From: Elusimicrobia bacterium GWB2_63_22
GTDB taxonomy: Bacteria; Elusimicrobiota; Elusimicrobia; Elusimicrobiales; UBA9959
Assembly: GCA_001799735.1 (NCBI GenBank)
Contig: MGUA01000031.1
Location: 48,937 to 101,915 of the forward strand
Direction: 5' to 3'
Length of the DNA stretch: 52,979 bases
The position numbers were made by a program, and so were the translations under genes. Below the pieces are notes generated by a model. The model saw only the letters and a list, made by a program, of their open reading frames with translations. It was not told the origin of the DNA and made no database searches. Of this stretch, positions 16,255 through 34,082 are shown one piece after another (the first letter of the stretch is position 1; each line of letters opens with the position of its first letter).

Positions 16255-16282
16255 ATTATACAACTTTACGGACTATTCGCAG
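16255..16282 (-). promoter_or_regulatory. Promoter of the riboswitch / rib operon
   Basis: A consensus TATAAT lies at 16260-16255 (minus strand), placing the transcript start only a few bases before the aptamer P1 helix. The best -35, CTGCGA at 16282-16277 with 16-base spacing, is weak. The promoter overlaps the end of the upstream adhesin gene. Confidence 0.65.
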
Positions 16283-19200
16283 GTCGTCTCTTCCTTGACG
16301 GTCACCCAGGTGGTCCCGTTGAAGAAACAGAGCTTGTGCAGGGTGATGCTATAGGCCATCGCGCCCTCCGCGGGGTTCGGAGCCGCCAGGAACTGTGCCT
16401 GTGTCATAGAACGCGGGAGCCAATAGCCCTCGGCGGTGAACGTGGACTTGGTCACCCCGGCGCCGAACTGCGCGTCGCCGTTTACGTCCAGCGCGGCCTG
16501 CGGGGCGGGGGTGCGTATGCCTACCGTGTAGTGCTTAACGTCGGAGGGGTCGATTATGAAGGAATAAGGCTGCGTCACCGGAGTGTTGTTGAAAAAGCCG
16601 TTGCCCGCCGTGTCGCTGAACCCCCAGGCAAAAGTGCCCTCGGCCAGGTCGGACACGTAGGTCTTGCGGCCGCCGGCAAAAGCGTAGGAGCTCATGACGA
16701 TATTGTACATGCCCCCGGGAATGGACGACTTTTCCCCGGAAACATAGTTCTCGGCGCCGCCGGCCACCACGCCGCTATTGGCATGCACGGTATGGGAGTA
16801 GCCGCCCAGGGCCGCCGAATACGTGCCGGAAGCGATGTTGTTCTGCCCGAAGGCGGCCGAATAGGCGCCGACGCCGTCCCACTGTGTGCCGGTCACGTTG
16901 CCTGCCCTTATAGCCGACATGGTCGGCACCCACATGAAGCGCGTCCCGTTGCCGGTAGCCGGCAGGGCCTGCGCGCCGGTATGGCTGCCGGACCCCAGGA
17001 TAGCCGCTTTTGCGTCCAGCGTGCCCTGCACCCGCATGGCCCCGTTCACGTCCAGCAGTACGGCGGGATTGCCGGTACCGACGCCGGTGAAGCCGGTGGC
17101 GGTACTGACGAACAGCGCCGCGGAGGCGCGGTCTCCGCCCACCAGAAAGCTGGAGGCTACGTGCACCCGTTCTTTAGGCGTGCCGGTGCTGAACCCCACC
17201 GAGGCGAGCCCGGTGGAGACGTAGATTATCGAAGCTCCGGCGTCGGCATTGCTGACCATCAGGTTGGTCATCACCTGGAAGCGTTCAGTGGCGATAAAAG
17301 AGGAGAGCGCGTCGCCTATCAGGAACTTGCCGTCCGGCTTAATGCGGAAGGCCTGCGTGCCGTTGCCGGTGCCGAGCGGGGGGAGAAGGCTGGCGGAGGC
17401 GATAGACGCATCGCCGCCGACGTAGATCAGGTCCCTCTCGCTGGTCCTTACGCCAAGGGCGCCGGGGGCGGCGATGCCGCCCGCCTGCCATCTGATATAA
17501 CTGTTGCCGCCGGTTTCTGGGAACATGGACAGCACGACGTCATTGAATGTGCCATCCGGCTGGTCCACCCTGAGGGTGCCGCGGACATGCACATCACTGG
17601 TCGGAAGAAAAGCCATTCCGCCGACAGCGACCCTGGAATTTACGTATATCGCGTCGTAACCGCTGTCCGGGATGTAGGAAATGCTGGAGACCTGCAGGTC
17701 CGCGCCGACAAAGCCGCCCTGGGCCGTTATGGAAGACCCGGCGACGATGCCCTGCCCTACCGTCAGGGAGTGGGTCTGCGTGGTGGTGCTTATGGAGACC
17801 CGGCTGGTGGTGGTACTGGCGAAGAACACCGGCACCGTGTCCGAAAAACCGGTAGTGCGGGTGCTGACCAGGACATTGGCCCCGACATGGAACCGCTCCT
17901 GCGGATCTTCGGTCCCTATGCCGAATTTCCAATTGGCGTACCTGTCGGACGCGATGCGGAACACTTCGGCCCCCCGGCTGGCGAAATTGTTGGTGGAGGG
18001 GTCCTCTCCCAGCGCCCGGTAGACCAGGGTCCTGCTGATAGGCAGGAAACCCAGCGCGCCCTGCTGCGGGCCGTCGCCGTCGCCGGCAATAATGGCGTTC
18101 TTCCAGCTTATATAGCCGGAGTAGTACGAGGAAAGGTCCAGCGAGACGTCGGTGTCCGTGTCCGAGGTATAGGAAATGCGGGCCGTCTTGCGCACCTCCA
18201 GCGGCGCGGCCGGGGAGTTCACCTGCACGCCCACGTTGCCTGCGGTAGTCACCACGAGGCCGTAATAATCGTTCACGTTCACAAGAGTCCCGACGGTGAC
18301 GGCGTACTGGTGCTCCCCGTAGGAATTAACGGTAAGGCTGGACCCCAGCACCACCAGGTTGCCGGTCATGGTGTCGCCCGCCTTGCTTACCTTGGAAGTG
18401 TCGGTGCTCTTAAGCACGCCGTCCAGCAGGGCGCCGCTGCCTACAAAAAAAGGCGCAACCACCTTGCCGGCGTTGACTTTGATGCCGCTGGCCGTGGTGA
18501 CGCTGTAGCTGTTGTCCGGGTCCGGCCCTACGAAGCCCCAGAAGGTGGCCGTGGAGGCCGTAACGCTCTGCGTAAAGTTGCCGTAGGGCGCGTTCACGAG
18601 GGTACTGCTGTACAGGCCTTGCTGGGCCGTAATGCTGGAAGTGGCGATGATGCCGCCTACTACGGAGAGTTTGGCGGGGAAAGAGGTAAGGCTGCCCACC
18701 GCCACGCTGCCGCCGGCAATGGCGAAGGTGGAACCGGTGACGGAGAAAGCGCTGCCTGTGACGGTCAGCGTGCTGCCGGTGAGAGTGGTAGTGCTGAAGC
18801 CGAGCGTCAGCGGGCCGGCCATGGTGTCCCCGGTGCGCCAGACCTTGGTATTGTCATAGGTAAAAAGGTTGGTCAGGCCGCCGCCATCGCCGTAATAGAC
18901 CGCCCCGGCGGGCAGATAGACGTTGGAGCTGATATAGATGCCGCCCCGCTGGGCCGCGCTGGCCGAAGAGAGTTCAACGTTGCCAGCCAGCTTGAGCTTC
19001 GGGGCCTCTACGCCGAAAGGCGAGGTCGCCGTAAGGCTGGAGCCTTCCAGGCGCAGGTGGCCCGTCATGGTGTCGCCGGCCTGGCGCACCAGCCCGCTGA
19101 GCTTGGCGCCGTTGCCGTAGATCTCGCCGAGGCCGTTGATCTTGAATTTCTCCACCGCCCCCGCGGTCACCAGGAAAATGTCCCCGGTGTCGCCCGCCGC

Positions 19201-20031
19201 CGTGGAGACGTGCAGCCTGGCCAGCGGCATAGTGAGGGACTCCCCGATACCGACGTTGCCGGGGTTTATGCTGTAGACGTTGTTGCCGCTGCCCTCCCAC
19301 ATGGTGATCGCGGCCGCCTTAAGCTGCACCGAGCCGTCGGGGAACCGGAACCCGCAGGTATAGTTGAAGGGATCCGCTCCGCAGGAAGGCCAGTTGCCGG
19401 TGCTCTCCACCACGCCCGCCACGGCCAGCTTCTGGCCGGGGGAGATGCTGCCCACCGAGATGCCGCCCTGCACGAACAGGTTGGTGGAAATGGTTATGGC
19501 GCCGTAGGTAGTCTGCGGCAGCGCCTCCAGGATGTCCGCCCTGAACACGGTCGTAGCGGCGGAAGCGGTAGAGGCGTACAGGGAGTTGAAGGCGAAGGGA
19601 GACGCCTGCAGGCGGATGCGGGGCGACATGGCCTCGTAGGGGCCGGAGCAGCTGCCGTCGGCGTCCACCTGGATCTCCAGCCAGAGGTTCTGGTTGGTCA
19701 GGAAGAGCGAATCCGGGACGCCGCCGGTGGTCATGGAACCTATTTCCACGTCGTAGCGCCCCTTGCTGACGCCCACGTTGCAGCGGCTCTCCGTGAAGAG
19801 GGCGGAACCGCCGGAAGCGGCGTTATAGATTATGAACTTGATGTCCTGCGGGATCTCCACAGGCAGGTTGGTGGCCTTGCTCAGCAGGAAACCCTGGTAG
19901 TTGAAAGACTGGTTTATGGCCGCCAGGGCGGGAAGACTTAAGGCCATGAGGGCAAAGAGGGGAACAAGGCAGAGCAGGGCGCGGCGCGGCGCGGCTCCCT
20001 TCAATTTTCCTGTCTTAACCGTTGAAAGCAT
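16273..20031 (-). CDS. Large secreted tail-fibre/adhesin-like protein with head-type repeats (1252 aa)
   Basis: The start at 20031 (MLSTVKTGKLKG) has a strong GGAGG ribosome-binding site and opens into a signal peptide ending near residue 37 (LSLPALAA). An N-terminal domain of about 150 residues (INQSFNYQGFLL to RIRLQASPFAF) is of a type common on large surface proteins of several phyla. The middle is a long Ser/Thr/Gly/Val-rich beta stalk. It contains three phage-tail-fibre-like motifs (GDTMTGHL, GDTMAGPL, GDTMTGNL) and GIGT-type turns. Near the C-terminus are YadA-head-like repeats (SAAFGQNNIASGTYSAALGG). It ends with a small Cys-containing domain (LHKLCFFNGTTWV). No anchor or S74 chaperone domain was recognised. 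Probably exported with the 537-aa gene 17 bases upstream. Confidence 0.85.
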   Translation of the reverse strand: MLSTVKTGKLKGAAPRRALLCLVPLFALMALSLPALAAINQSFNYQGFLLSKATNLPVEIPQDIKFIIYNAASGGSALFTESRCNVGVSKGRYDVEIGSMTTGGVPDSLFLTNQNLWLEIQVDADGSCSGPYEAMSPRIRLQASPFAFNSLYASTASAATTVFRADILEALPQTTYGAITISTNLFVQGGISVGSISPGQKLAVAGVVESTGNWPSCGADPFNYTCGFRFPDGSVQLKAAAITMWEGSGNNVYSINPGNVGIGESLTMPLARLHVSTAAGDTGDIFLVTAGAVEKFKINGLGEIYGNGAKLSGLVRQAGDTMTGHLRLEGSSLTATSPFGVEAPKLKLAGNVELSSASAAQRGGIYISSNVYLPAGAVYYGDGGGLTNLFTYDNTKVWRTGDTMAGPLTLGFSTTTLTGSTLTVTGSAFSVTGSTFAIAGGSVAVGSLTSFPAKLSVVGGIIATSSITAQQGLYSSTLVNAPYGNFTQSVTASTATFWGFVGPDPDNSYSVTTASGIKVNAGKVVAPFFVGSGALLDGVLKSTDTSKVSKAGDTMTGNLVVLGSSLTVNSYGEHQYAVTVGTLVNVNDYYGLVVTTAGNVGVQVNSPAAPLEVRKTARISYTSDTDTDVSLDLSSYYSGYISWKNAIIAGDGDGPQQGALGFLPISRTLVYRALGEDPSTNNFASRGAEVFRIASDRYANWKFGIGTEDPQERFHVGANVLVSTRTTGFSDTVPVFFASTTTSRVSISTTTQTHSLTVGQGIVAGSSITAQGGFVGADLQVSSISYIPDSGYDAIYVNSRVAVGGMAFLPTSDVHVRGTLRVDQPDGTFNDVVLSMFPETGGNSYIRWQAGGIAAPGALGVRTSERDLIYVGGDASIASASLLPPLGTGNGTQAFRIKPDGKFLIGDALSSFIATERFQVMTNLMVSNADAGASIIYVSTGLASVGFSTGTPKERVHVASSFLVGGDRASAALFVSTATGFTGVGTGNPAVLLDVNGAMRVQGTLDAKAAILGSGSHTGAQALPATGNGTRFMWVPTMSAIRAGNVTGTQWDGVGAYSAAFGQNNIASGTYSAALGGYSHTVHANSGVVAGGAENYVSGEKSSIPGGMYNIVMSSYAFAGGRKTYVSDLAEGTFAWGFSDTAGNGFFNNTPVTQPYSFIIDPSDVKHYTVGIRTPAPQAALDVNGDAQFGAGVTKSTFTAEGYWLPRSMTQAQFLAAPNPAEGAMAYSITLHKLCFFNGTTWVTVKEETTCE

Positions 20032-20048
20032 ATATCCTCCGCCGAAAG

Positions 20049-21662
20049 TTAACGTATCACCGCCACCGTCCCGTTGTAGACGGTACCGTCCGCCTCTATC
20101 TGGTAGATATAGACGCCGCCCGGCACGGCCTGGCCGCCGGCCTTGGCGTCCCACTTAAGGGAGTTCGCTATCGGCCCGGCCGCCATCGTCGCCACCAGGC
20201 CCCCGCGCATGTCGAAGATGCGGCCCTTCACCGCCTTCTCCTGCGGGTTATCAAAGATAAAGACCATGGTATCATTTTTCCCGTCGTTATTAGGAGTGAT
20301 CAGGCGGTTGGTCAGGCCGGACCTGTCGGCGGAGAAGCTGCCGCTGCGCTCGGTGGTCCGCAGCTGGTAGCGGCCGAGCAGCGTGGTCTCCAGCCGGACG
20401 CTCTGGTCCTGGGCGTTCACCACGCCGTACATCTGCAGCCAGCGGGCGCCGTTGTTGAAATACATGCTGAGCTGCTTGGCGTCGTTCAGGGCGGAGGGGA
20501 CTATCGCGCCTCCGGACTTGCTGTAGTAGAGCTTCAGCACGGCGTTGCGGGAAAGCTTGAAGGAGGGGGCGGCCTGCAGGCCGCCGCGGTAGGCGGAGAA
20601 CTCCACGGATTTCACCACCCTGCCGCCGAGGTCTTCCGGGTGCGTGGAGATCTCCACGTTGTAGGAATCCATCGGGTCCGCCGACTCCGTGAAGAAAGCG
20701 CCGGTGCCGTCGGCCGGCACCTGCAGTATGCTCAGGTTGTCGGGCGCCAGGAAGTAAAGGTCGCCTGAACTGCTGTCGCGGGCGTAGGAGGGGAGGGAGG
20801 CGCCGGCCTTGTTGATGGCCTTGGCGTGATAGTAATAGTTGTCGTCCACGCCCACCGTGTCCGTCCAGTTGAAGGTGTCGGAGGACACCTCGCCGAGGAA
20901 ATCCCACTCCGCGTCGGCCGGCGCGGTGGCGCGGTAAACCTGGTACGCGCGGATCTCGTAGGGGTAGGTGGGGTTGAACCGGTCGTTGAACGGGATGCGG
21001 TTCATGTAGCCGGCCGGCGGGATCCAGGTTATATTGACCGAAGGCCCCGACTTTACCAGCTTGAAATTCATAGGCGGCAGCGGCACCAGGGCGATGGCGG
21101 CGGCGCTGTTGGAAAACTCGGAAAGCAGGCGGTGCGAATTCACGCTCTCGAGCGAGAAGTAGTAGGTGGTGCCGGGGTTGAATCCCTCCACGACCTGGAC
21201 CTCCTCGGCGCCGGGAGCGAGGGGGACCCAGCCCTGCGCGTAAGGATCGGCCGCGGCGAAGGCCCTGTCGTCGGCTATCGGCGCCGTAGTGGTGTATTTC
21301 AGCACGTACGCGTCCGCGGCTTCGGCGGCGCGGGCGATGTCGGCCGAAGGGGCGGTCCAGTTGACGCGGATGGAGTAGCTGGTCACGATCACCACGGAGA
21401 GGTCGGCGACGGTGGCGGGGAAGGGGTAGAAGGCCAGCCGGCCGGTCCGCTGGGAGAACCCGGAGATCTCCTGCGAGGAGACGGCCAGCTCCTGCAGGGA
21501 GGCGCTGCCCGAGAAATTCGCCGAGACCATGGCCGCCGAGCCCAGGGCGGAAATGCCGCCGACGTCCGCGAAATTAGAGGAATACATCCTCTCTGCCGAG
21601 AGGCGGGGGGCGGAGCCCAGAAGGAGCGCCGCGAACAGGGATAAAACGCCTGCGGTCTTCAT
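20049..21662 (-). CDS. Secreted FN3-type protein with FlgD/CHU_C-like C-terminal module (537 aa)
   Basis: The signal peptide is about residues 1-23 (LLLGSAPRLSA). A fibronectin-III-like region (about 85-195) contains SYSIRVNWTAPSADIA and NPGTTYYFSLESVN. A second such region follows (NITWIPPAGYMNR, then DNYYYHAKAINKAGASLP). The last about 90 residues form a beta module: NRLITPNNDGKNDT, then GRIFDMRGG, LKWDAKAGG, and GGVYIYQIEADGTVYNGTVA. This resembles FlgD Ig-like and gliding-motility-associated C-terminal domains, some of which are sorting signals for the type IX secretion system. It precedes the large adhesin in an apparent two-gene operon. The -10-like TATAAT at 21676-21671 would leave almost no leader. 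Confidence 0.85.
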   Translation of the reverse strand: MKTAGVLSLFAALLLGSAPRLSAERMYSSNFADVGGISALGSAAMVSANFSGSASLQELAVSSQEISGFSQRTGRLAFYPFPATVADLSVVIVTSYSIRVNWTAPSADIARAAEAADAYVLKYTTTAPIADDRAFAAADPYAQGWVPLAPGAEEVQVVEGFNPGTTYYFSLESVNSHRLLSEFSNSAAAIALVPLPPMNFKLVKSGPSVNITWIPPAGYMNRIPFNDRFNPTYPYEIRAYQVYRATAPADAEWDFLGEVSSDTFNWTDTVGVDDNYYYHAKAINKAGASLPSYARDSSSGDLYFLAPDNLSILQVPADGTGAFFTESADPMDSYNVEISTHPEDLGGRVVKSVEFSAYRGGLQAAPSFKLSRNAVLKLYYSKSGGAIVPSALNDAKQLSMYFNNGARWLQMYGVVNAQDQSVRLETTLLGRYQLRTTERSGSFSADRSGLTNRLITPNNDGKNDTMVFIFDNPQEKAVKGRIFDMRGGLVATMAAGPIANSLKWDAKAGGQAVPGGVYIYQIEADGTVYNGTVAVIR

Positions 21663-21709
21663 GCAATATTATTATACCGGCCCCGTGCGACCAAAATATT
21701 ACAAAGAGG

Positions 21710-21738
21710 TTGCAATATCCCGGCGTAGAATTTATAAA
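21710..21738 (+). promoter_or_regulatory. Promoter of the 132-aa secreted-module gene
   Basis: TTGCAA at 21710-21715 and TATAAA at 21733-21738 are separated by exactly 17 bases, in the gap between two divergent genes that encode the same C-terminal module. The predicted leader is about 40 bases. Confidence 0.7.
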
Positions 21739-21783
21739 TCGGAAACAAAACAGTCACAATTGAAAAGTAGAATTAACACAGAT

Positions 21784-22182
21784 ATGAACCTTAACGCGCA
21801 GATCTTCCGCCTCCTGGCCGTGCTGGCACTTGCACCGGCCGCGGCTTTCTGCGCGGCCTCGTCGCTCGGGCGCTCCGTCCCGCTCAACCGGCTGGTGACG
21901 CCGAACGGCGACCACCTCAACGACACCTTTATTTTCAGATGCTACAACCCCAAGGATTCCGCGATAGAGGCCAGGATCTTCAACGCGGCCGGAGCCGAGG
22001 TGGGAAAAATGACGCTCAAGCAGCGCTCCACCGCGGCCTCGCTCACGCCTTACGCCTACGGCGAATACTACGACCTGGAGTGGAACCCCAACACGGCCGG
22101 AAAAGCCCCGGGCGGGGTGTACGTCTACCAGATCAGGCTGGAGACGGCGGTGTATAAGGGAACAGTAGCAGTAATAAGATAA
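21784..22182 (+). CDS. Small secreted protein consisting of a FlgD/CHU_C-like module (132 aa)
   Basis: The start MNLNAQIFRLL follows the promoter above and opens into a signal peptide ending around residue 24 (AAAFCAAS). The remaining about 105 residues match the C-terminal module of the divergent 537-aa protein block for block: NRLVTPNGDHLNDTF, ARIFNAAGAEVGKM, DLEWNPNTAGKA, PGGVYVYQIRLETAVYKGTV. Both end in exactly GTVAVIR. There is no other domain, so it may be a free-standing partner, a decoy for a sorting apparatus, or a surface subunit. The function is unknown. The PorV-like gene follows 12 bases later. Confidence 0.8.
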   Translation: MNLNAQIFRLLAVLALAPAAAFCAASSLGRSVPLNRLVTPNGDHLNDTFIFRCYNPKDSAIEARIFNAAGAEVGKMTLKQRSTAASLTPYAYGEYYDLEWNPNTAGKAPGGVYVYQIRLETAVYKGTVAVIR

Positions 22183-22194
22183 GTAGGCACGACT

Positions 22195-24207
22195 ATGATG
22201 ACCAAGGTCGAAAAAATGCGCGGTTCCAGGCCCGGCCCGTCAGTGACGGGGCTGGCCGCCGTGATTTTCTGCCTGCTGGCCTGCGCGCGGCCGGCCCGCG
22301 CGGCTTTCGAGGACCTCGGCTTCGGGGCCAGGGGGCCCGGCATGGGAGACGCCTTCACCGCCGTGGCGGACGACGTCTCCGCGGCCTACTATAACCCGGC
22401 CGGCCTTTCCAACGTGGAGCGCCCCAAGGTCCTGGCCTCCCACGCCCTCTTCCACACCGGCCTGAGCGACGGCTCCAGCCTGGGCATGAGCGGCCTGGCC
22501 TTCGCCACCCCTATCTCCAACGGCCGCAACGGGACGGTGGGCGTCCTGTGGCAGCAGTTCTCCCTTTCCGGCGTCTACTCCGAGCAGACGGGGCAGGTCT
22601 CCTGGGGCTACCGCTTCGCCAAGGAGTCGGCCTACGAGAAGTTCTCGCTCGGCGCCTCCGTCAAGTATTTAAGCCACGGGTTCACCCGCCTGGAGGAGAC
22701 TTACAACGCCGTCAGGGACGACATTCTGCAGCAGGGGGATACGGACCCGGTGCTGGCCGGGGCCAAGACCCGCTCCGCCCTGGACGCCGACGTGGGCGCG
22801 CTGTACCGGTATTCCAAGCGCTGGACCCTGGGCGCCTCCGTAATGAACGCCATGCAGGCCGACGTGGCCTTCAGCGAGGCCGACCAGGACAAGATCCCCA
22901 TGAAGACCCGCGTGGGCGCCTCCTACAAAAGCCTCTGGATGCTGATGGCCGCCGACGCCAGGTTCTCCAAGGGCCCCGACGGCAAGATGGACAAGCAGTT
23001 CACGGTGGCCGCCGAGAAGGTCTTCCCCAGCCTCGACCGGGGCGACCTGGGCGTGCGCGGCTCGCTGGCGGCCGGCGACAGGGAATTCAAGCAGGCCACG
23101 CTCGGCTTCTCCTATAAGATACAGAAGATCCAGGTGGATTACGGCTTCGCCCTGCCGCTCGGCACCATCAAGGAAACCTCCGGCAACCACAAGATAGCGC
23201 TCAGCTACCATTTCGGCAGCGCCACGCAGACCGAGCTGGCGGAGACCGAACTGCTGGACCAGTACAAGAAGCTGCGCGACGCCCAGAACTACAAGAGCCC
23301 GCGCGACACCGCCAGCCTCAACGACCCCCGCCTGGCCGAAGTCAGGGAGCAGGTGCGCAAGGAAAACTATTACGCGGCCAACAAGCTGCTGCTCGAGAAG
23401 GCCAACGAGCTGCTGCCTGACGCCTCGGTGGTCAGCCTGACCCGCCGCCTCTCCACCGTGGCGGCCTTCTACCCGTCGCTCGCCGTGGACGGGGACCGCC
23501 AGAAACAGCGCTGGGAGGAGCTGCTGTCGGCCGGCGCCCGCGACTTCATCAACGGCAGGGACCTGCGCGCCATGAAGGAGCTGGCCTACGCCCAGAGCCT
23601 CAACCAGCAGGACTCCGCCCTTTCCAATTTCCTCGACCGCACCGGCGAGCTGACCCGCGTAACCCCCGACCGGGTGCCCGCCGATTTCAGCCGCGGCTGG
23701 CCCGAGTACAAGATGACCGAGTCCGACGAGTTCTACGCCAAGAAGCGCTACTCCGAGGCCCTGCGCAAGCTGGAGGAGCTGCTGGAGATAGAGCCGGGCA
23801 ACCTGATGGCGCTCAAGAAGAGCGGCTCGTGCAACTATATGCTGGGCAGCTACGCCAGGGCCATCCGCGACTGGGACCTCGCCGCCAAGGCCGAGCCCGA
23901 CCCCGTAGAAAAGGCCAAGCTCGCCAGGATGGTGGAGGAAGCCAGGGCGAAGGCCGGCAAGGCGGGCACGTGGGAGCCTAACGCCGCGCAGACCCGCCTC
24001 TCCGAGCCCGAGGACGAAACGGCCCCCGGGACCGCGGGCAAGCCCGACGCCCGCGAGATAGAGCGGCTTTACCAGGCCGGCGCCGACGCCTACGCCAAAG
24101 GGGAGTACGGCAAAGCGGCCGACTCGTTCCGCAAGATCCTTACGCTGGACCCGCAGAACACCCAGGCGAAGAAAGCCCTGGAACGCATAATACGGCTGTC
24201 GAGGTAA
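22195..24207 (+). CDS. PorV/UPF0164-type outer-membrane barrel with C-terminal TPR domain (670 aa)
   Basis: A signal peptide occupies about 1-37 (CLLACARPARA). Mature residues begin AFEDLGFGARGPGMGDAF and continue with VADDVSAAYYNPAGLSN, the hallmark opening of PorV/PorQ-type beta-barrels; strands continue to about residue 345 (IALSYHFG). The rest is alpha-helical with at least two tetratricopeptide repeats, near 510-575 (YSEALRKLEELLEIEPGNL) and 625-665 (EYGKAADSFRKILTLDPQN). PorV serves as an outer-membrane shuttle in type IX secretion; whether this one does is unknown. The first ATG lacks a clear ribosome-binding site, and an internal ATG at 22216 with AAGG upstream is an alternative start. 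It probably heads the run into the sensor-kinase and FliF-FliG genes. Confidence 0.85.
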   Translation: MMTKVEKMRGSRPGPSVTGLAAVIFCLLACARPARAAFEDLGFGARGPGMGDAFTAVADDVSAAYYNPAGLSNVERPKVLASHALFHTGLSDGSSLGMSGLAFATPISNGRNGTVGVLWQQFSLSGVYSEQTGQVSWGYRFAKESAYEKFSLGASVKYLSHGFTRLEETYNAVRDDILQQGDTDPVLAGAKTRSALDADVGALYRYSKRWTLGASVMNAMQADVAFSEADQDKIPMKTRVGASYKSLWMLMAADARFSKGPDGKMDKQFTVAAEKVFPSLDRGDLGVRGSLAAGDREFKQATLGFSYKIQKIQVDYGFALPLGTIKETSGNHKIALSYHFGSATQTELAETELLDQYKKLRDAQNYKSPRDTASLNDPRLAEVREQVRKENYYAANKLLLEKANELLPDASVVSLTRRLSTVAAFYPSLAVDGDRQKQRWEELLSAGARDFINGRDLRAMKELAYAQSLNQQDSALSNFLDRTGELTRVTPDRVPADFSRGWPEYKMTESDEFYAKKRYSEALRKLEELLEIEPGNLMALKKSGSCNYMLGSYARAIRDWDLAAKAEPDPVEKAKLARMVEEARAKAGKAGTWEPNAAQTRLSEPEDETAPGTAGKPDAREIERLYQAGADAYAKGEYGKAADSFRKILTLDPQNTQAKKALERIIRLSR

Positions 24208-24214
24208 AAGCAAA

Positions 24215-25525
24215 GTGAACCTCTTCCACAAGCTCAGCGCGGCGCTGATAGCGGCGGCCCTGGCGGCCGGCGCCCTGCTGTCCGTTATCTTTTTCAACTT
24301 CCAGAAGGAGACCATCCGCGCGGCCCAGCAGGAGCGCCTCGGGACGATGGCGGCCTCGGCCGCGGCCATGCTGCGGGAGGCGGAACTGGCGGGGGACCCG
24401 CTGATGGCGGTGGACTACCTGTCCGGGCTTTACGGCTCGCCGGGCCTGGTCTCCTGCGACCTGGACATCGGCCGCGGCCTCAGGCCGGTAAAGCCGCGCA
24501 GGGCCAGGAAGTCGCCAGCGGCTGCGGGGGCCCTGGTCTCCAGGACCGCCGCCGGAGGGAAATTCTCGGCGCGGCTCAATTTTTCATCCGATCACCTCGA
24601 CCGGGAGATAAAATCCGCCCTGGCCGGCATCTACCGCAACCTGGCGGCCGCTTTCCTGGGCGCCACGGCGGGGGCCGGCCTGCTGGGCGTGCTGCTGGCC
24701 TGGCGCCTGACCGGCAGGCTCAAGCGCCTGGCCGCCGAGGCGGGAGAGCTGGGGGAGGGCCGCTTCGGGGTCAAGACCGACGCCCGCGGCTCCGACGAGG
24801 TGGCGGACCTGGCGGCGGCGTTCAACCGCATGTCGGACCGCCTGCTGGAACTGGAGACGCTGAAAAAGAACTTCACCGCCTCCGTCACCCACGAGCTGCG
24901 CTCGCCGCTGGGGGTCATAGAGACCTACGCCGCCATGCTGCTCAAGGAAAAAGAGAAGTTTTCCGCCGAGGACCTGGAAGTCTTCGGCCGGATAAAAGAG
25001 AACGCCGGCCGCCTGGCCAATTTCGTCACGGCCATGCTGGACCTGGCAAAAATAGAGCGCGGCAAGATGGAGCTGCGCCCCTCGTACGAGGACCCGGCCG
25101 CGCTGGCGGCCGACGCCGCCGACTTCCTGCGGCCCAAAGCGGCGGAGAAGGGCGTAGAACTTACCCTGGAGGCCGCTGCGGGCCCGCCCTGCCTCCTGGA
25201 CCGCGAGCTCATAACCCACGCCCTCACCAACCTTGTCTCCAACGCCATAAAGTTCTCGAAGTCCGGCGGAAAAGTGCAGGTAACCGTCTCCGTTTCCGAC
25301 AAACGCTGCCGCATGGAGGTGCGCGACAGCGGGCCCGGCCTTAAACCAGGGGAAGAAAAAAAACTTTTCGAGCCCTACGCGCAGGGCTCGGCCGCGCCCG
25401 GCCACGGCGGCACCGGCCTCGGCCTGGCTCTGTCAAAATCTATCGTAGAGCTGCATAAAGGCAGCATCGGCTGCGCCCCCGCCCCCGGAGGCGGCGCCCT
25501 CTTCTGGTTCGACCTCCCGGTGTAG
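24215..25525 (+). CDS. HAMP-domain sensor histidine kinase (436 aa)
   Basis: This is a membrane-bound two-component kinase starting at GTG, with GAGGT nine bases upstream. The first membrane helix spans about 9-28, an extracytoplasmic segment of about 105 residues follows, and the second helix lies at about 139-163. HAMP is at about 164-215. The dimerisation domain has phospho-acceptor H226 in VTHELRSPLG. The ATPase domain shows the N box (NLVSNAIKFSKSGG), G1 (RDSGPGL) and G2 (GGTGLGLALS). It starts 7 bases after the PorV-TPR gene and precedes the FliF-FliG fusion by 54 bases. Its partner is unknown; the minus-strand regulators ending at 29030 are candidates. Confidence 0.93.
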   Translation: MNLFHKLSAALIAAALAAGALLSVIFFNFQKETIRAAQQERLGTMAASAAAMLREAELAGDPLMAVDYLSGLYGSPGLVSCDLDIGRGLRPVKPRRARKSPAAAGALVSRTAAGGKFSARLNFSSDHLDREIKSALAGIYRNLAAAFLGATAGAGLLGVLLAWRLTGRLKRLAAEAGELGEGRFGVKTDARGSDEVADLAAAFNRMSDRLLELETLKKNFTASVTHELRSPLGVIETYAAMLLKEKEKFSAEDLEVFGRIKENAGRLANFVTAMLDLAKIERGKMELRPSYEDPAALAADAADFLRPKAAEKGVELTLEAAAGPPCLLDRELITHALTNLVSNAIKFSKSGGKVQVTVSVSDKRCRMEVRDSGPGLKPGEEKKLFEPYAQGSAAPGHGGTGLGLALSKSIVELHKGSIGCAPAPGGGALFWFDLPV

Positions 25526-25538
25526 CGGACACGCTGTA

Positions 25539-25560
25539 ATAACTCTGTAACCTGAGTTAT
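25539..25560. promoter_or_regulatory. Inverted repeat upstream of the FliF-FliG fusion gene
   Basis: ATAACTC (25539-25545) and GAGTTAT (25554-25560) are perfect seven-base inverted arms eight bases apart, ending 19 bases before the ATG. A TACAAT-like -10 sits just downstream. It could be a regulator binding site or a weak hairpin. The short 54-base gap holds nothing else. Confidence 0.4.
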
Positions 25561-25579
25561 ATACAATATCAGTGTAATT

Positions 25580-27019
25580 ATGAACCAGCTTTTACGCCCT
25601 TTCGCCCTTCTCCTCGCCTTCGCCTGCGCGGCCGCCGCGCAGACGGCTCCTGAAACGCCCGCTCCTTCGCCCAGCGCCCAGGCCACCGAACTCTCCGCCC
25701 GCATGCAGGAGGACGTCTCCCGCCTGCTCGAGCAGCTCGTCGGCCGCGGCCGCGCCCGCTCCTTCATCGCCGTGGAGGGGGAGATAGTGCTCAAGAGCCG
25801 GAGCGAGTCCGGCCCCACCGCCGAGGAAAGCCTCACCATGCCCGGCTACGCCGCGGTCAATATCCTCGAGAAGACCGGCGAATACTTGAAGCAGCAGCGC
25901 GAGGAGTCCCAGCGCACCACCGAATTCAAAGTCAAAAAGCTCAACGTCTCCCTTGTTTTCGACAGGACCGTCCCCGAGGCCCGCGTCAACGCGATAAAGC
26001 TCATCATCGCCGAGATGCTGCGCCTGAGCGAACAGCGCGGCGACAGCATTTCCACCGCGCGCACCGAGATGATGCCCTGGTGGAAGACCGCCCTGGAGGC
26101 CCCCGAGATCCGCCCCGTGCTTATCGCCTCGGCCTTCGGCGCGCTGGCCCTGGCCGCGCTGCTGGTGCTCGGCTACATCCTCGCTTCCAAACTGATGACC
26201 GGCTTTGTGGACTACGCCCGCGTGAACGCCCAGGCCTCCGCCCCGCTGACCGCGGGCGGGAGCGGTTACGGCGGCCCCGGGAGCGAGGGAGAAACCGGAG
26301 AGCTGGGGGAGATCATCGACGTGGAATCGCGGGCCGCCTCCGGCGGACTGCTGGAAGCCGGCTCGGCCTTCGAATTCATGGAGAAGCTGCCGCCCTCGGA
26401 AGCCGCGGAACTGCTCTCCGACATGCCCGAAGAGGACGCGGCCATCATCATCGCCAACCTCTCCGACCGGAAGCCCCACATTTCCTCCAAGATCCTGCTC
26501 TCCTTCTCCCCTGCCAAGCGCCAGTCCGTTTCGGCCGGCATGCTCAACCTCAAGCAGGCCGACCCCGAGAAGGTCTACGAGATAGAGAACGACCTGCGCA
26601 TGAAGCTGGAGAAAAGCCTTAAAGGCGCAGACAAGCTGGGCCGCCTGCTCTCCCTGGTGGACGAAGCCGCCCGCACCGAGATCCTTGAAAACCTCTCGCG
26701 CGCCAACCCCAAAGGTTCCGAAGAGCTGCGCCGCAAGATGGTCACTTTCGACGACATCTGCCGCCTGGACGAAAAGAACCTGCGCCCGCTGGTGGTCTCC
26801 ACGCCCTACGCCGAATGGGCCGCCGCCCTCACCGGCTCCGGCGAGACCGCTGTGGGCAACGTCACCCGGCTGCTGCCCGAGGACGTGCGCATGATCGTCA
26901 AGGACATGATGCTGGCCCGCCCCGAGGAAGAGAAGATAATCGGCGCCAGGGCCCGGATAATTTCCAACGCCATCGACCTCAACGCCAAGGGCCGCATCGT
27001 CATAAAGGAGGGCGTGTGA
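25580..27019 (+). CDS. FliF(RBM3+TM)-FliG fusion: rotor-like protein with signal peptide (479 aa)
   Basis: Domains in order: signal peptide about 1-20; periplasmic domain about 41-167 matching the third ring-building motif of the flagellar MS-ring protein FliF; transmembrane helix about 179-202; Gly-rich linker to about 260; then cytoplasmic FliG. FliF-like features are LLEQLVGRGRARSFIAVEGE, KKLNVSLVFDRT and LSEQRGDSI before WWK and the helix. FliG middle-domain features lie in about 262-345 (FMEKLPPSEAAELLSDMPEE). FliG C-terminal features are KLGRLLSLVDEAARTEILEN, EELRRKMVTFDDICRLDEKN and the end segment GRIVIKEGV. The MTFxD..xLD block corresponds to the torque-helix region. FliF's N-terminal helix, RBM1-2 and most of the beta-collar are missing. 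The C-terminus overlaps the next gene by GTGA. MotA/B genes lie 6 kb away. Confidence 0.85.
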   Translation: MNQLLRPFALLLAFACAAAAQTAPETPAPSPSAQATELSARMQEDVSRLLEQLVGRGRARSFIAVEGEIVLKSRSESGPTAEESLTMPGYAAVNILEKTGEYLKQQREESQRTTEFKVKKLNVSLVFDRTVPEARVNAIKLIIAEMLRLSEQRGDSISTARTEMMPWWKTALEAPEIRPVLIASAFGALALAALLVLGYILASKLMTGFVDYARVNAQASAPLTAGGSGYGGPGSEGETGELGEIIDVESRAASGGLLEAGSAFEFMEKLPPSEAAELLSDMPEEDAAIIIANLSDRKPHISSKILLSFSPAKRQSVSAGMLNLKQADPEKVYEIENDLRMKLEKSLKGADKLGRLLSLVDEAARTEILENLSRANPKGSEELRRKMVTFDDICRLDEKNLRPLVVSTPYAEWAAALTGSGETAVGNVTRLLPEDVRMIVKDMMLARPEEEKIIGARARIISNAIDLNAKGRIVIKEGV

Positions 27020-29025: not shown

Positions 29026-29029
29026 GGCA

Positions 29030-29710
29030 CTATAACTTGAAAAGGTAGCCGAGGCCGAAGACGGTCCTCAATTTGGAGCCAAAGGCGCGCCCCAGGCCGG
29101 AGCGCAGGGCTTCTATCCGCTTGTCCACGGCGCGGGGGCCGGCCTGTTCGCCCTGCCGCCACACCTGCTCCAGCAGGACGGTGCGGGAAACCACCCGCCC
29201 CTGGTTCCTCAGGAAATAAAGAAGGATGTCGAACTCGAGCGCCGTCAGCTTAAGGCGGCGCCCGCCGATCACCGCGGTCCTTGCCTCAGGGGAGATGACG
29301 AGGGCCCCGAAGCGGTACGCCTCCGGCGCCGGGGGCGGGCAGGCCCGCACACCCGCGCGGTCCAGGAGGTTTACCAGGCGCGCCCTGAAGAGCCGCGGGT
29401 CCGGGGGGTAAGGGAAATATTCGTCGGCCCCGTTCTCCAGGCAGAGGGCCGCGTCGGCGGGGGAATAGGTGCCGCCGGTCAGCACCAGGAGCAGGCCGGC
29501 GGTGGTTTTCTCCCGGCGCAGCACGGCCGCCAGGTCCCTGCCGCTCATGTCCGGCAGCGCGGAATCTATGACGGCCAGCCCCTTGACGGGCGGGGCGTTA
29601 AGGAAGGCCGCGGCCGAAGGGTAGAATTTAAGACGGAAACCTTTAAGGGCCGCCCTGTAGAAGGCGCGCGCGGAAGGGTCTGACGTGAGGCAGGCTGCGG
29701 CGAGGGTCAT
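29030..29710 (-). CDS. Response regulator with degenerate receiver and winged-helix DNA-binding domain (226 aa)
   Basis: An OmpR/PhoB-type architecture. Receiver residues 1-115 keep the phospho-acceptor D49 (VIDSALPDMSG) and T78, but the usual conserved lysine is replaced by Tyr (Y101, EYFPYPPDP), and only one acidic residue (D11) is found at the N-terminal pocket. The winged-helix domain is about 130-226, with LKLTALEFDILLYFLRNQG, SRTVLLEQVW and GLGYLFKL. The start overlaps the stop of the preceding regulator by four bases. It is the last gene of its operon and ends four bases from the convergent GHKL gene. It is the only obvious DNA-binding regulator in this cluster. Confidence 0.9.
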   Translation of the reverse strand: MTLAAACLTSDPSARAFYRAALKGFRLKFYPSAAAFLNAPPVKGLAVIDSALPDMSGRDLAAVLRREKTTAGLLLVLTGGTYSPADAALCLENGADEYFPYPPDPRLFRARLVNLLDRAGVRACPPPAPEAYRFGALVISPEARTAVIGGRRLKLTALEFDILLYFLRNQGRVVSRTVLLEQVWRQGEQAGPRAVDKRIEALRSGLGRAFGSKLRTVFGLGYLFKL

Positions 29711-30084
29711 GCGGGAAAGACGGCGGCCTTGATGCGGCGCAGGAGTTCGTCGGGGTCGAAGGGTTTGAGCACGTAGCCGGCCGCGCCCAACTTAAGGCCT
29801 TCGGAGACCATATCCAGCTCGGAGCGGACGGTGAAAAAGATGATCGGCGTTTTAGCCAGCGCGGGCACCTTGCGCAGCCGGCGCGCGGCCTCGAAGCCGC
29901 TGATATCGGGCAGGCCCACGTCGAGAAGGATCAGGGAGGGGAGCTCTTTTTCGGCCAGGGCCACCCCGGGCAGGGCGGCCGGGGCCGTTACTACCGCGCA
30001 GCCGGCCTTGGCGGCTATCCTGGCCGCTATCTTAAGGTAATCCGGCTCGTCGTCGACTACGAGCACTTTGGGGCGGGAGGTCAT
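29707..30084 (-). CDS. Single-domain response regulator (CheY-like, 125 aa)
   Basis: A stand-alone receiver with all canonical residues: D11 and D12 in VVDDEPD, phospho-acceptor D55 in LLDVGLPDISG, T85, and K107 in VLKPFDP. There is no output domain, so it would act by protein contact as CheY does, plausibly on the FliG-like rotor or in a phosphorelay. It overlaps both neighbours by four bases. Confidence 0.93.
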   Translation of the reverse strand: MTSRPKVLVVDDEPDYLKIAARIAAKAGCAVVTAPAALPGVALAEKELPSLILLDVGLPDISGFEAARRLRKVPALAKTPIIFFTVRSELDMVSEGLKLGAAGYVLKPFDPDELLRRIKAAVFPA

Positions 30085-30455
30085 TTCTTCGTCAGCTGGG
30101 CCGCCACCTTCTTCTCGAGGAAGGAAAGCTCCACGGTCTTGCTCATGAACTCCCGGCAGTTGGCCTCCTGGCGGAAGAGGTCGCTCATGTTCTTGTCGAA
30201 GAAGCTGCCGGTGATGATCAGGACGGGGATATTGCGGGTCTCGTCCTCCACCTGCAGGCCGCGCACCACCTCGATGCCGCCCATGTCGGGCATCATGACG
30301 TCGCAGAGGATGATGTCGGGGCGTATGGCCTTGGCCTTGGCCAGGCCCTCGCGCCCGTCGCCGGCGATTTCCACGGTGAAGCCCAGATCGGTGAAGTAGT
30401 CGGAAACCATGGTGCGGAACTCGACATTGTCGTCAATTATCAGCATCAGGTTCAT
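30081..30455 (-). CDS. Single-domain response regulator (124 aa)
   Basis: A receiver-only protein with D8 and D9 (IIDDN), phospho-acceptor D52 (CDVMMPDMGG), T82 and K106 (SKTVE; the proline after Lys is replaced by Thr). The start at 30455 (MNLMLIID) is chosen because GGAG lies eight bases upstream. An ATG four codons earlier (30467) would sit almost at the predicted transcript start and lack a ribosome-binding site. It is the first gene of a three-regulator operon with its own promoter. Confidence 0.9.
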   Translation of the reverse strand: MNLMLIIDDNVEFRTMVSDYFTDLGFTVEIAGDGREGLAKAKAIRPDIILCDVMMPDMGGIEVVRGLQVEDETRNIPVLIITGSFFDKNMSDLFRQEANCREFMSKTVELSFLEKKVAAQLTKK

Positions 30456-30475
30456 TTTTTGCTCCATAGGTCTCT

Positions 30476-30504
30476 AGTATAATTCAAATCAGCCCGCGTT
30501 TCAA
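30476..30504 (-). promoter_or_regulatory. Promoter of the response-regulator operon
   Basis: On the minus strand TTGAAA (30504-30499), a 17-base spacer and TATACT (30481-30476) make a strong sigma-70-type promoter. The -35 overlaps the stop codon of the upstream sensor kinase. The regulators can therefore be expressed apart from motAB and the kinase. Confidence 0.75.
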
Positions 30505-32639
30505 GAGGGCGTAGGCACCGGGGGCGGCGGGGGGGCCGCCGGCGGCGGCGCGGCCATGGCCTTGGAAACCGTGAAGATGAACTTGCTGCCCTTGCCCACT
30601 TCGGACTCCACCCAGATATCGCCCTTGTGCAGCTGCACCGTCATCTGGCACATCGCCAGGCCCAGGCCGAAGCCCTGGCTCTTGTGCTCTTCCATCTGCG
30701 AATACTTCTCGAAGATCTCCCTGCGCTTGTTCTCCGGTATGCCGGGGCCGGTGTCCTGCACGGCGAAGAACACCTGTTTGTCGTCCTCCCAGGCGGAAAG
30801 CGTGATGCTGCCGCCGCCGGGGGTGAACTTGAGCGAGTTGCCCATCAGGTTGGTGATTACGCGCTCCAGCAGGATGGGGTCCGCGGTGACGCGGATCTTG
30901 GAGGGGAAGGGGGCCACGGAGAGCTTTATGTTCTTGGGGCCGGCCACCGGCTCGTGGTTCTCCTTGATGCGGGTGATCAGCGCCTCGGCGTCGACGTCGT
31001 CGAGCTGCAGCGACATGGTGCCGCGCTCGAGCTTGGTGGTGTTGAGGATGTCGTCGATCATGCCGCGCAGGCGGCGCGAAGAATAAAGCATGCTCTGCAG
31101 ATACTTGTCCGTGGCCGGCGAGGGGCCGATCTTCTTCATGAGCAGCTCGGTGTAGCCCTGCAGCGTGGACAGCGGGGCCCTCATGTCGTGCGTGATCATG
31201 TGGAAGAACTCTTCCTTGGCCTTCTCGATCTCCTTCTCGCTGGTGATGTCGCGGATGATGATGACGCGGCCCGGGCGCTTGAGCGTCGCGAGCAGGAACT
31301 GGTTGGAGATTATCCGGAAGCTCTTGAGCACGGTGGTCGTCTCGCCGGCCAGCGGGGCGTCCACCTCGATCTTCAGGTACTTTTCCTTCTGCCCCAGCAT
31401 CTCGGTCAGCGCGTTGAAGAAAGCCTCGTTCTTGACCGAGCGGGGGACGGCGACCTCCGGGGAGATCTTGGGGATGCCCAGCAGCTTCAGCGCGGTGTTG
31501 TTGCAGTAGATCAGGGAGCCGCGGTCGTCTATCAGCAGCACGCCGTCGGAAATGGTATCTATCAGCGCCTGGGCCTTGCCCTTCTCCTCCACGATCTGGT
31601 TCAGCTGGAAGGCGCGGTAGGCCTGCAGCTCCAGCATCAGGCGGTTGAGCACGCCGACGAGCGACTTGATCTCCGGCCAGCCTTCCGCCGGGATCACCTT
31701 GTCGAGGTGCTGGGTGCGCAGGAAGCCTTTGACGCCGCCGACCATGTTGTTGATCGGCACGATGATGCGGTTGGAGATCAGGAACACCACCACCATGGTC
31801 ACGCCGAAGATCACCACGGCCAGCACCGAGAAGATGAGGATGGACTTGCGCTGCTTGCCGTAGAGCTCGTCCTCGGACTGCACCGAGACCGCCGCCCAGT
31901 CCAGCTTGTCTATGGCGGCGTAGGCGCCGGAATACTCCTTGCCCGAGAACACGAACTTGGCCAGCGTGCCGGTGCGGCTGCCGCTGCGGAAGGTTTTCTT
32001 CATCTCCTCCGGGCTATAATCCAGGCCCTTCATGTCCTGGCAGGGCAGCGGCCGGCCCTTGCTGTCGGAAATGAACACGCGGCCGCTGCGGCCGGCGCGC
32101 TGCGAGTTTATCTTCTCCAGCAGCTTGTCCATGGCGAAATGGAAAACCACCACGCGGCCGTCCACCAGCGGGTAGACGAGGGGGAAGAAGGCCTGGCCCC
32201 TGGTGCAGAGCACCTCGCCGGAGGTGACGATGCCGCTCTCGCGGGCGCGGTCGATGAGCTCTTTCTGAAAAGAGGCGAGGGACTTCTTCTCCTTGACCTT
32301 CTCGCTCTGCAGGAAGAACTGCTCCTTGTCGGCCTTGTCCACGAGGCCGAGGGACATGATGTCGGAATTGATGCGGGCGGCCTGCGCTATGACCTCGGCC
32401 TCGTTGACCTTGCGGCCGCGCAGCGGGTTCTCGAACTCGTAGAGGAAGGCGAGGTTGCGGTTGGTATTGAGGAACCAGTCGTCCACGTTGGAGGCCGACA
32501 GGCGCGACAGGCCGCGGTGGAGTTCGAAGTAGCTGCTGACCGACGAGTTGTACTGGTAGACGTTCCAGCCGACGGCCAGCACCAGCGGGAGCACCGCTAT
32601 GGCCAGCAATATCAGCAGGAACCTCGTGGTCAGTTTCAT
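30501..32639 (-). CDS. Cache/HAMP/PAS sensor histidine kinase (712 aa)
   Basis: The membrane helix is about 8-28. An extracytoplasmic sensor of about 235 residues (double-Cache-like; GRVFISDSKGRPLP and WAAVSVQ segments) follows, then the second helix about 266-290 with HAMP after it. PAS is at about 350-465 (ALIDTISDGVLLIDDRGSLIY). The dimerisation domain has H484 (MITHDMRAPLST). The ATPase domain shows NLMGNSLKFTPGGG, DTGPGIPE and GFGLGLAMC. A Pro/Ala-rich tail ends the protein. It starts four bases after motB, so kinase and stator genes are transcribed together; this suggests it controls or senses the motor. Its likely targets are the three regulators directly downstream. Confidence 0.93.
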   Translation of the reverse strand: MKLTTRFLLILLAIAVLPLVLAVGWNVYQYNSSVSSYFELHRGLSRLSASNVDDWFLNTNRNLAFLYEFENPLRGRKVNEAEVIAQAARINSDIMSLGLVDKADKEQFFLQSEKVKEKKSLASFQKELIDRARESGIVTSGEVLCTRGQAFFPLVYPLVDGRVVVFHFAMDKLLEKINSQRAGRSGRVFISDSKGRPLPCQDMKGLDYSPEEMKKTFRSGSRTGTLAKFVFSGKEYSGAYAAIDKLDWAAVSVQSEDELYGKQRKSILIFSVLAVVIFGVTMVVVFLISNRIIVPINNMVGGVKGFLRTQHLDKVIPAEGWPEIKSLVGVLNRLMLELQAYRAFQLNQIVEEKGKAQALIDTISDGVLLIDDRGSLIYCNNTALKLLGIPKISPEVAVPRSVKNEAFFNALTEMLGQKEKYLKIEVDAPLAGETTTVLKSFRIISNQFLLATLKRPGRVIIIRDITSEKEIEKAKEEFFHMITHDMRAPLSTLQGYTELLMKKIGPSPATDKYLQSMLYSSRRLRGMIDDILNTTKLERGTMSLQLDDVDAEALITRIKENHEPVAGPKNIKLSVAPFPSKIRVTADPILLERVITNLMGNSLKFTPGGGSITLSAWEDDKQVFFAVQDTGPGIPENKRREIFEKYSQMEEHKSQGFGLGLAMCQMTVQLHKGDIWVESEVGKGSKFIFTVSKAMAAPPPAAPPPPPVPTPS

Positions 32640-32643
32640 GGTC

Positions 32644-33270
32644 TTAGATCTCGTGGCGGATGATGTTGATCTCTATGCGCCGGTTCTTGGAGCGGCCTTC
32701 GGGCGACTCGTTGGTCTGTACCGGCTTGAACTCGCCGTAGCCCACGGCGGAAAGCTTTTCCGGCGCCACGCCTTCCTTGACGAAGAACTGCAGCACCGAG
32801 AAGGCGCGCGCGCTGGACAGCTCCCAGTTGGAGCGGAAGCGCGTCCCGCGGCCCAGGGGGCGGTTGTCGGTATGCCCCTCTATCTGTATGGGGTTGGGCA
32901 GGTCCTTGAAAACGGCCGTCAACCGGCGCAGGTGGGGGTAGGAGGACTCCTTGAGCACGTCGCTGCCCGGGGCAAAGAGTATGGGGTCGGAGAAATTGAT
33001 GCTGATCTTGTTGGCGGAGATCTCGACCTGCGCTATCTGCTGGATGCCGTGCTTGGAGAACAGGGTGCTGGCGATCTCGGTATCCTTGCCGAAGGTCTCC
33101 TCGAGGCCTTTCATGCTGAACTGCGCGGTGATGTTCTTGGAGCTGTAGAAGGCGAAGAGGATCATGAAGAAGATCATCAGGTAGCTCATCATGTCGCCGT
33201 AGGTGATGGCCCACAGCGCGCCGCGGTTGAGCTCGTTCTCCAGTTCGTCCTCGCGTTCGTAGTAGCGCAT
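32644..33270 (-). CDS. motB: MotB-like stator protein
   Basis: A 208-residue protein with a single N-terminal membrane helix carrying the proton-binding aspartate D26 (WAITYGDMMSYLMIFFMILFA). A plug/linker region follows, and an OmpA-like peptidoglycan-binding domain (about 95-205) includes IQIEGHTDNRP, SSARAFSVLQFF and the RSKNRRIEI end. It would anchor the stator to the cell wall and carry ion flow together with MotA. It is shorter than flagellar MotB of E. coli (308) but within the range of MotB/AglS/TolR-like relatives. It lies three bases after motA. Confidence 0.9.
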   Translation of the reverse strand: MRYYEREDELENELNRGALWAITYGDMMSYLMIFFMILFAFYSSKNITAQFSMKGLEETFGKDTEIASTLFSKHGIQQIAQVEISANKISINFSDPILFAPGSDVLKESSYPHLRRLTAVFKDLPNPIQIEGHTDNRPLGRGTRFRSNWELSSARAFSVLQFFVKEGVAPEKLSAVGYGEFKPVQTNESPEGRSKNRRIEINIIRHEI

Positions 33271-33273: not shown

Positions 33274-34050
33274 TTAAGCCTTGCCGCCGGAGCCCTTGGC
33301 CGCTTCCGCGGCCTGGTAGCCGCGCAGGTGGATCTCCACCAGGTGGGGGGTCTTGCCGGCCATGATGTCCATCACGCCTTCGAGGATGAGCTGCAGGATC
33401 AGGGTCTCCTCCATGGCGCGCAGGCGGATCTTGTTGGCCACCGGCACGCAGAACATGTTGGAGAAACCGATGCCGAACAGGGCGGAGGTGATGGCGACGG
33501 CCATAGAGCGGCCTATGGCCGTGGGGTCGGAAATATTGCTCAGGGTCTGGATGATGCCGAACAGCGTGCCGATCAGGCCGAACATCGGGGAAAGCACGCC
33601 GGCCGTGCGGTACAGGTTGGAATCCTCCTGCACGTCCAGGCGGCGGCGGCGGATCTCCTCTTCCAGGATGTCGCGGGTCTCGCGGGACTCGGCGCTGGTC
33701 ATCGCCACGCCCACGGCGCGCTTAAGGAAGCCGCCGGCGAAGGCCGGGTCGGTGTTGGACAGCGCCATGATGCCGCCCTGCTTCTGGGCGGTCTCGGCCA
33801 TGCCCACCAGCGTGCGCACCGCGACCTCCACGGTGGGGATCTTGGGGGTGGAGAAAATATCTATCAGCGCCTTCAGCCCGGCGGCGAAGCGCACGTACGA
33901 GGTGTTTATCAGCGTGGCGGCCAGGGTGCCGCCCAGGACTATTATGATGCCGTGAGAATTGAGGATCTTGTCCGCGACCCCGGAGGAGAATGCGCCCCAG
34001 ACCATTACGGCCGCGCCCAGAATGAAACCTACTATCGTCATTATGTCCAT
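33274..34050 (-). CDS. motA: MotA-like stator protein
   Basis: 258 residues from the ATG at 34050 (MDIMTIVGF), preferred because GGAG lies nine bases upstream; a TTG 15 bases earlier is possible. Four membrane helices are evident, two N-terminal (about 2-20, 33-51) and two after the cytoplasmic loop (about 150-172, 181-203). The cytoplasmic loop has the charged region (VEVAVRTLVGMAETAQ) that in flagellar MotA touches FliG. The helix-3 proline segment is GVLSPMFGLIGTLFGII, and VPVANKI follows helix 4. With MotB it forms an ion-driven stator. It is first in the motA-motB-kinase operon. Confidence 0.92.
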   Translation of the reverse strand: MDIMTIVGFILGAAVMVWGAFSSGVADKILNSHGIIIVLGGTLAATLINTSYVRFAAGLKALIDIFSTPKIPTVEVAVRTLVGMAETAQKQGGIMALSNTDPAFAGGFLKRAVGVAMTSAESRETRDILEEEIRRRRLDVQEDSNLYRTAGVLSPMFGLIGTLFGIIQTLSNISDPTAIGRSMAVAITSALFGIGFSNMFCVPVANKIRLRAMEETLILQLILEGVMDIMAGKTPHLVEIHLRGYQAAEAAKGSGGKA

Positions 34051-34082
34051 AAGTGATGTCTCCAAAAACGTGCGTGAGTCTC

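Follow-up and report, generated by a model that had tools for sequence, protein, structure and literature searches.

The gene cassette around the chimera

The window analysed here is a stretch of 52,979 nucleotides from the uncultured Elusimicrobia bacterium GWB2_63_22. It contains a cassette of about 18 kb (16273-34065) in which a gene joining parts of the flagellar ring protein FliF and the rotor protein FliG (hereafter, the chimera) lies among genes for secreted and outer-membrane proteins, two-component regulators, and a MotA/MotB stator. The genes are as follows, with the number of syntenic loci carrying each given as a fraction of 20 where available.

16273..20154, minus strand: large repetitive putative secreted/surface protein, 1293 aa; no Pfam match; 18/20
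20049..21662, minus strand: secreted fn3 protein with a CHU_C / T9SS type B sorting domain (PF13585, 31 bits); 20/20
21784..22182, plus strand: small secreted protein with a C-terminal CHU_C (type IX sorting) domain (PF13585, 31 bits)
22195..24207, plus strand: PorV/PorP-family outer-membrane barrel with TPRs (PF11751, 43 bits); 20/20
24215..25525, plus strand: membrane histidine kinase (HAMP-HisKA-HATPase); 20/20
25580..27019, plus strand: FliF(RBM3)-FliG(M+C) chimera, 479 aa, uninterrupted from ATG to stop codon
27016..29025, plus strand: coiled-coil protein with a HATPase_c domain, its GTG start overlapping the chimera stop codon; 20/20
29030..29710, minus strand: response regulator with an OmpR-type DNA-binding domain (PF00486, 60 bits); 20/20
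29707..30084, minus strand: single-domain (CheY-like) response regulator (PF00072, 92 bits); 20/20
30081..30467, minus strand: single-domain response regulator (PF00072, 69 bits); 20/20
30501..32639, minus strand: histidine kinase with dCache-like sensor and PAS; 20/20
32644..33270, minus strand: MotB, with plug/TM carrying the Asp (YGD) and an OmpA-type peptidoglycan-binding domain (PF13677, 38 bits; PF00691, 75 bits)
33274..34065, minus strand: MotA stator subunit of the flagellar/PomA-like kind (PF01618, 70 bits)

Synteny of the cassette was observed in all 20 relatives examined, down to 47% identity of the chimera, and MotA/MotB were present in 19. Conservation was lower for the metabolic genes beyond MotA (13–14 relatives). 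The cassette of one relative (G212; L171, contig C35) was complete except for MotA/MotB, which were missing between the kinase gene and an acyl-CoA dehydrogenase gene.

The CHU_C and Por_Secre_tail sorting domains scored above the Pfam cut-off. Matches to TIGR04131 on the fn3 protein (31.5 bits, cut-off 35) and to NF033709 on the PorV/PorP-family barrel (61 bits) fell below theirs. The start of the small secreted protein at 21784 is probable only, having been chosen by eye from a signal-like sequence within the open reading frame 21529-22182. The 1293-aa protein is a candidate surface load.

MotA and MotB are located 5.6 kb from the chimera in the same cassette and have the features of a stator, i.e., the MotA family fold, and the plug, essential aspartate and peptidoglycan-binding domain of MotB. 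NCBIfam models for flagellar MotA/PomA matched MotA at 153–159 bits, compared with 22 bits for TolQ. MotA has two invariant prolines at the aligned positions of the known pore prolines, and the MotB aspartate is kept, as read in the alignment.

Domain architecture of the chimera

In flagella, RBM3 of FliF builds the S-ring, the FliF ring has about 34 subunits, MotA pushes FliG_C, and MotB anchors to peptidoglycan. The original prediction placed a minimal FliF and FliG in a single polypeptide at 25580..27019, and the intact gene, its profile matches, predicted fold and orthologs all agree with this. The features of the chimera, all on the plus strand, are:

25580..25642, plus strand: putative Sec signal peptide, residues 1-21, with an AAA|QT-like site judged by eye; the model has a helix at 5-19
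25661..26074, plus strand: FliF RBM3 with a shortened beta-collar, residues 28-165; fold match, and PF08345 in 18/18 orthologs
26108..26194, plus strand: single transmembrane helix, about residues 177-205; hydropathy, and helix 177-219 in the AlphaFold model
26363..26617, plus strand: FliG middle domain, residues 262-346; PF14841, 29.9 bits, and fold superposition
26687..27004, plus strand: FliG C-terminal (torque) domain, residues 370-475; PF01706, 54.3 bits, and fold superposition

Both FliG domains scored above their Pfam cut-offs, and residues 255-475 superposed on FliG M+C structures (8wiw, Z 17.9; also 1lkv, 1qc7 and 8ucs), with the C-terminal domain aligned to 1qc7 and 8ucs over 86–87 residues at 1.7–1.8 Å, as expected from the FliG assignment first proposed. 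The FliF part is more divergent in profile searches: YscJ_FliF_C (PF08345) matched at 19.8 bits (E 1.2e-3), below the cut-off of 23.8. The same family was detected at E ≤ 0.01 in each of the 18 aligned orthologs (best 1e-5), and the paralog on contig C34 exceeded the cut-off with 33.5 bits. In the AlphaFold model (mean pLDDT 77; 84–94 in most core-domain blocks), residues 28-165 matched FliF RBM3 of Salmonella and Vibrio (7bk0, 8z5v and 6sd1) with Z 13.6–13.9 over 96–103 residues at 2.0–2.8 Å, the best superposition being Z 13.9 at 2.0 Å over 96 residues, whereas the top-scoring unrelated fold (OsmC-like) reached a Z of about 9. The RBM3 identity is thereby confirmed, with the domain starting near residue 28 rather than at residue 41 as first read.

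The FliF part is strongly reduced, as had also been predicted. PF01514 (YscJ_FliF, covering RBM1-RBM2) matched neither the chimera nor any other part of the genome. In the model, partners exist for only about 99 of the 208 residues of FliF 231-438, so most of the beta-collar is missing, and what remains of it is two long strands (59-74 and 111-128). A putative signal peptide stands in place of the N-terminal transmembrane helix of FliF; no 19-residue window of the signal region reached the hydropathy threshold of 1.6, in contrast to residues 176-210. The rotor domains were thought to be attached directly to the membrane ring. They do lie on the same chain, but a disordered linker of 40 residues (220-260) separates the membrane helix from FliG M+C. 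This linker runs straight into FliG_M, and the FliG-binding tail that follows the C-terminal transmembrane helix of FliF is absent. FliG_N was not detected in the chimera (PF14842, 19.9 bits, below cut-off and overlying FliG_M). The EHPQR motif for FliM binding is also absent, with LPDED opposite EHPQT of T. maritima in the profile alignment, a loss that is expected given that the genome has no FliM (see below).

The torque helix has partly kept its charges (E. coli numbering). Position 288 is acidic in 17 of 18 orthologs, and the charges at K264, R281, D289 and R297 are all lost in the window type, with R281 replaced by D, R297 by E and D289 by M or L. The gear contact surface must therefore be redrawn.

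From the profile, fold and ortholog evidence, we conclude that the protein is an RBM3-only, minimal FliF fused to FliG M+C. It shares the RBM3 fold, the FliG M+C folds and a flagellar-type MotA and MotB with flagellar rotors and MotAB/PomAB stators, but differs from those rotors in the fusion itself, in its signal peptide, and in lacking RBM1-2, the first transmembrane helix, most of the collar and FliG_N. FliF-FliG fusions in Salmonella and Vibrio retain ring assembly, and a Salmonella mutant with such a fusion was motile (PMC6079021, PMC11481574). These also carry FliF and FliG in one chain (PDB 8z4d for Vibrio), but they retain a long FliF (the Vibrio chain has 945 aa), occur in flagellated species, and are mutant or engineered rather than natural genes of a lineage. 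Other RBM rings in membranes, i.e., SpoIIIAG (PDB 5wc3) and the T3SS proteins SctJ/PrgK, have neither FliG nor a stator and are weaker fold matches than FliF RBM3 (Z 8.2 for SpoIIIAG, which is among the matches of the chimera).

Rotor and stator genes in the genome and the phylum

The chimera is not unique, a point that the original prediction missed. In the genome (3.06 Mb, 95.3% complete), FliG_C was matched exactly four times, and reading of the loci revealed all of them to be chimeras. The other three are:

contig C1, L005:7492-9423: further chimera with its own MotA and MotB
contig C34, L006:8341-9888: further chimera with its own MotA and MotB
contig C12, L007:7488-9020: further chimera with its own MotA and two tandem MotB genes

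All four follow a common plan of putative signal peptide, RBM3-like region, transmembrane helix and FliG M+C, and one has C-terminal TPRs. Support for the RBM3-like region is limited in the 643-aa paralog, for which the structure comparison listed only FliG and TPR folds, with RBM3 crowded out, and whose type matched PF08345 at E ≤ 0.01 in just 2 of 11 members. MotA genes also number exactly four, one per chimera locus, in addition to one TolQ/ExbB-like gene, and each motor locus has its own MotA and its own MotB, a pairing that is directly observed.

A complete flagellum elsewhere in the genome was considered and rejected. There is no FliMN_C domain (thus no FliM or FliN) and no FlhA (best match only 10.4 bits) in this 95.3% complete genome, nor a YscJ_FliF N-terminal domain or any other FliG, and so no separate fliF and fliG genes that would have undermined the fusion. 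The absence of RBM1-2, FliG_N, FliM/FliN and the export gate agrees with a reduced ring. We regard the architecture as given, together with the absence of a flagellum, as close to certain; without a flagellum, the motor probably turns something else.

Orthologs of the chimera were found in more than 30 genomes (59 genomes of the same family were searched), with 46–79% identity and each as a single open frame without internal stops. The same architecture is thus found in related genomes, and the gene is not a join. The partial presence of FliF and FliG could suggest an assembly join, or a degenerate remnant left by the loss of a flagellum. Given the uninterrupted and syntenic orthologs and the repeated duplication of the gene, to four or five copies per genome, a remnant is barely credible, and a frameshift or assembly join was rejected.

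On named Elusimicrobia contigs, a second conserved arrangement was detected, a same-strand operon of a PorV-like outer-membrane protein with TPRs, a chimera of about 640 aa with TPRs, a large coiled-coil protein, FlbD (a certain identity; PF06289, 83 bits), MotA, MotB and a putative lipoprotein. The order FlbD-MotA-MotB is found in flagellar operons and is shared by this operon type. The named genomes were scanned with two peptide patterns, and 80 loci titled Elusimicrobia/Elusimicrobiota, Endomicrobia or 'bacterium' were kept. Across the 84 loci analysed, the chimera (n = 84) was accompanied by PorV-like proteins (n = 75), the coiled coil (n = 68), MotA (n = 60), FlbD (n = 57), MotB (n = 56) and the lipoprotein (n = 46); many loci were cut off by contig ends, and in the most distant members of the operon, MotA was not seen within the stretch of sequence covered.

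The chimera family is spread over much of Elusimicrobiota. Among 295 genomes of the phylum, 120 had both FliG_C and MotA, none had FliG only, 4 had MotA only, and 171 had neither (those listed being mostly small, 1.2–2 Mb). The copy numbers of the two genes were correlated (Spearman 0.87) and differed by no more than one in 113 of the 120 genomes. A Fisher test on this co-occurrence is not independent because the genomes are related, and the pattern is clear despite their kinship. One relative (G032; L018, contig C2) has a canonical 355-aa FliG with its N-terminal domain and a single divergent MotA, and probably has a true flagellum; FliG matches are therefore not all chimeras, and some members may be flagellated. 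In a FliG tree with two flagellar outgroups and an unknown root, the window type formed one group, and the C12 and C34 paralogs had very long branches. With such branches and no known root, one fusion event cannot be distinguished from several.

The rotor-stator pairing bears on whether the proposed ring moves. A static ring, in which FliG and MotAB sense load or a surface on behalf of the adjacent kinases, would fit the kinases and response regulators within the cassette, the drift of the torque-helix charges, and the G212 cassette without local MotAB. The near-perfect co-occurrence with MotA, the matching copy numbers and the conserved ion-path residues argue instead for working torque units, and reading of the C1 operon, which is of the type widespread in the phylum, revealed no kinase. 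We consider a non-rotating scaffold or mechanosensor improbable.

Possible function of the motor

We propose that the chimera serves as the rotor subunit in a rotary motor that is not flagellar. In the mature protein, RBM3 would be periplasmic, a single helix would cross the inner membrane, and FliG M+C would be cytoplasmic. Contacts between RBM3 domains would gather many copies into a ring, and the FliG_C domains of this ring would face MotA5MotB2 units from the same cassette, whose ion flow may turn it. By analogy with the Salmonella and Vibrio fusions, the chimera should form a ring in the inner membrane; the ring and its single layer remain an inference, and RBM3 alone need not give a closed one. 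As rod, hook, filament and export gate are all missing, torque would have to leave through the periplasmic face. Genomic support for the motor core is strong, and that this core is a MotAB-driven rotor, its rotation being inferred, seems likely to us. We are also fairly confident in the fuller statement, that this non-flagellar rotor works on the outer membrane, for which ring assembly, rotation and output were all inferred without experiment.

The load is suggested by linkage to PorV-like barrels and to proteins with type IX sorting domains. PorV-like outer-membrane proteins are encoded close to each of the four chimeras in this genome, and the C12 locus, like the window, encodes secreted protein(s) with a T9SS-type sorting domain. 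A 2069-aa protein (L005:11772-17978, minus strand) adjoins the C1 motor operon; its C-terminus matches the FlgD Ig-like domain weakly (24.5 bits, below cut-off), and it is another candidate surface protein. The linkage may also be incidental, if such barrels and sorting domains are simply widespread in these genomes, for which no genome-wide PorV count is available. If the linkage is meaningful, the motor would move or energise surface proteins, a role played by GldLM in gliding Bacteroidota. GldLM/PorLM (PMC8986121) likewise has a PMF-driven, MotAB-like architecture acting on type IX surface proteins, but no FliG-like rotor has been described for it, whereas the Elusimicrobiota motor has a true MotA and a MotB with a peptidoglycan-binding domain, and GldM was not found.

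The missing GldM raises the possibility that torque from the chimera and MotAB drives export through an SprA-like translocon, replacing GldLM as the energiser of type IX-like secretion. GldM had no match above cut-off in the 295 genomes and none at E ≤ 0.01 in this one, and PorV homologs are encoded in the operon. The genome also has an SprA/Sov-like ORF of 1783 aa (L179:5435-10786, minus strand, contig C39), which matched TIGR04189 at 124.7 bits, below the cut-off of 200. SprA-like matches were detected in 253 of the 295 genomes, compared with FliG_C in only 120; SprA-like translocons thus also occur in genomes without the motor, which is probably not needed for secretion as such. The motor could help in secretion, and we view a role as its energiser as unlikely.

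A rotor acting on surface proteins could take the more specific form of a gliding or adhesin-conveyor motor, in which surface adhesins (the CHU_C proteins and the 1293-aa protein) are driven via a periplasmic link to the PorV-TPR barrel and the two-component genes set on/off or direction. The PorV-like proteins at the four loci and at most of the 84, the secreted sorting-domain proteins at the window and C12 loci with the weak FlgD-like one at C1, the single-domain response regulators in the cassette, and the small size of most listed genomes without FliG and MotA all favour it. The literature searched contained no report of gliding in Elusimicrobiota, and neither the surface partner nor the periplasmic link has been identified. 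We offer this version of our preferred explanation as a serious possibility that falls short of being probable; gliding or surface-protein movement as the output is inferred and similarly tentative. The adjacent histidine kinases and CheY-like regulators may control the motor. The regulators suggest control of its activity or direction, or simply of transcription, given the DNA-binding domain in one of them.

According to a survey of flagellar loss, 11% of non-motile species have rotor proteins but no filament, and the function of these proteins was left unresolved (PMC12199754). The chimera family is a concrete and testable answer: here, without any flagellum, rotor parts and MotAB are retained in fused and duplicated form and are linked to outer-membrane genes. 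We found no description of the chimera in Elusimicrobiota in the literature searched (full text, with most subscription journals not covered). It may be among the smallest natural FliF-FliG rotors, and it offers a model in which torque generation is separated from filament assembly. The type IX-like translocon without GldM in Elusimicrobiota is worth a study of its own. We lean slightly towards a separate class of envelope rotary machine, in which a reduced FliF-FliG ring with its own MotAB would drive, instead of a filament, proteins of the outer membrane or the surface, with several specialised copies per cell and dedicated two-component control, across much of the phylum. The family also provides a candidate system for motility or surface transport in a phylum of which most members are uncultured.
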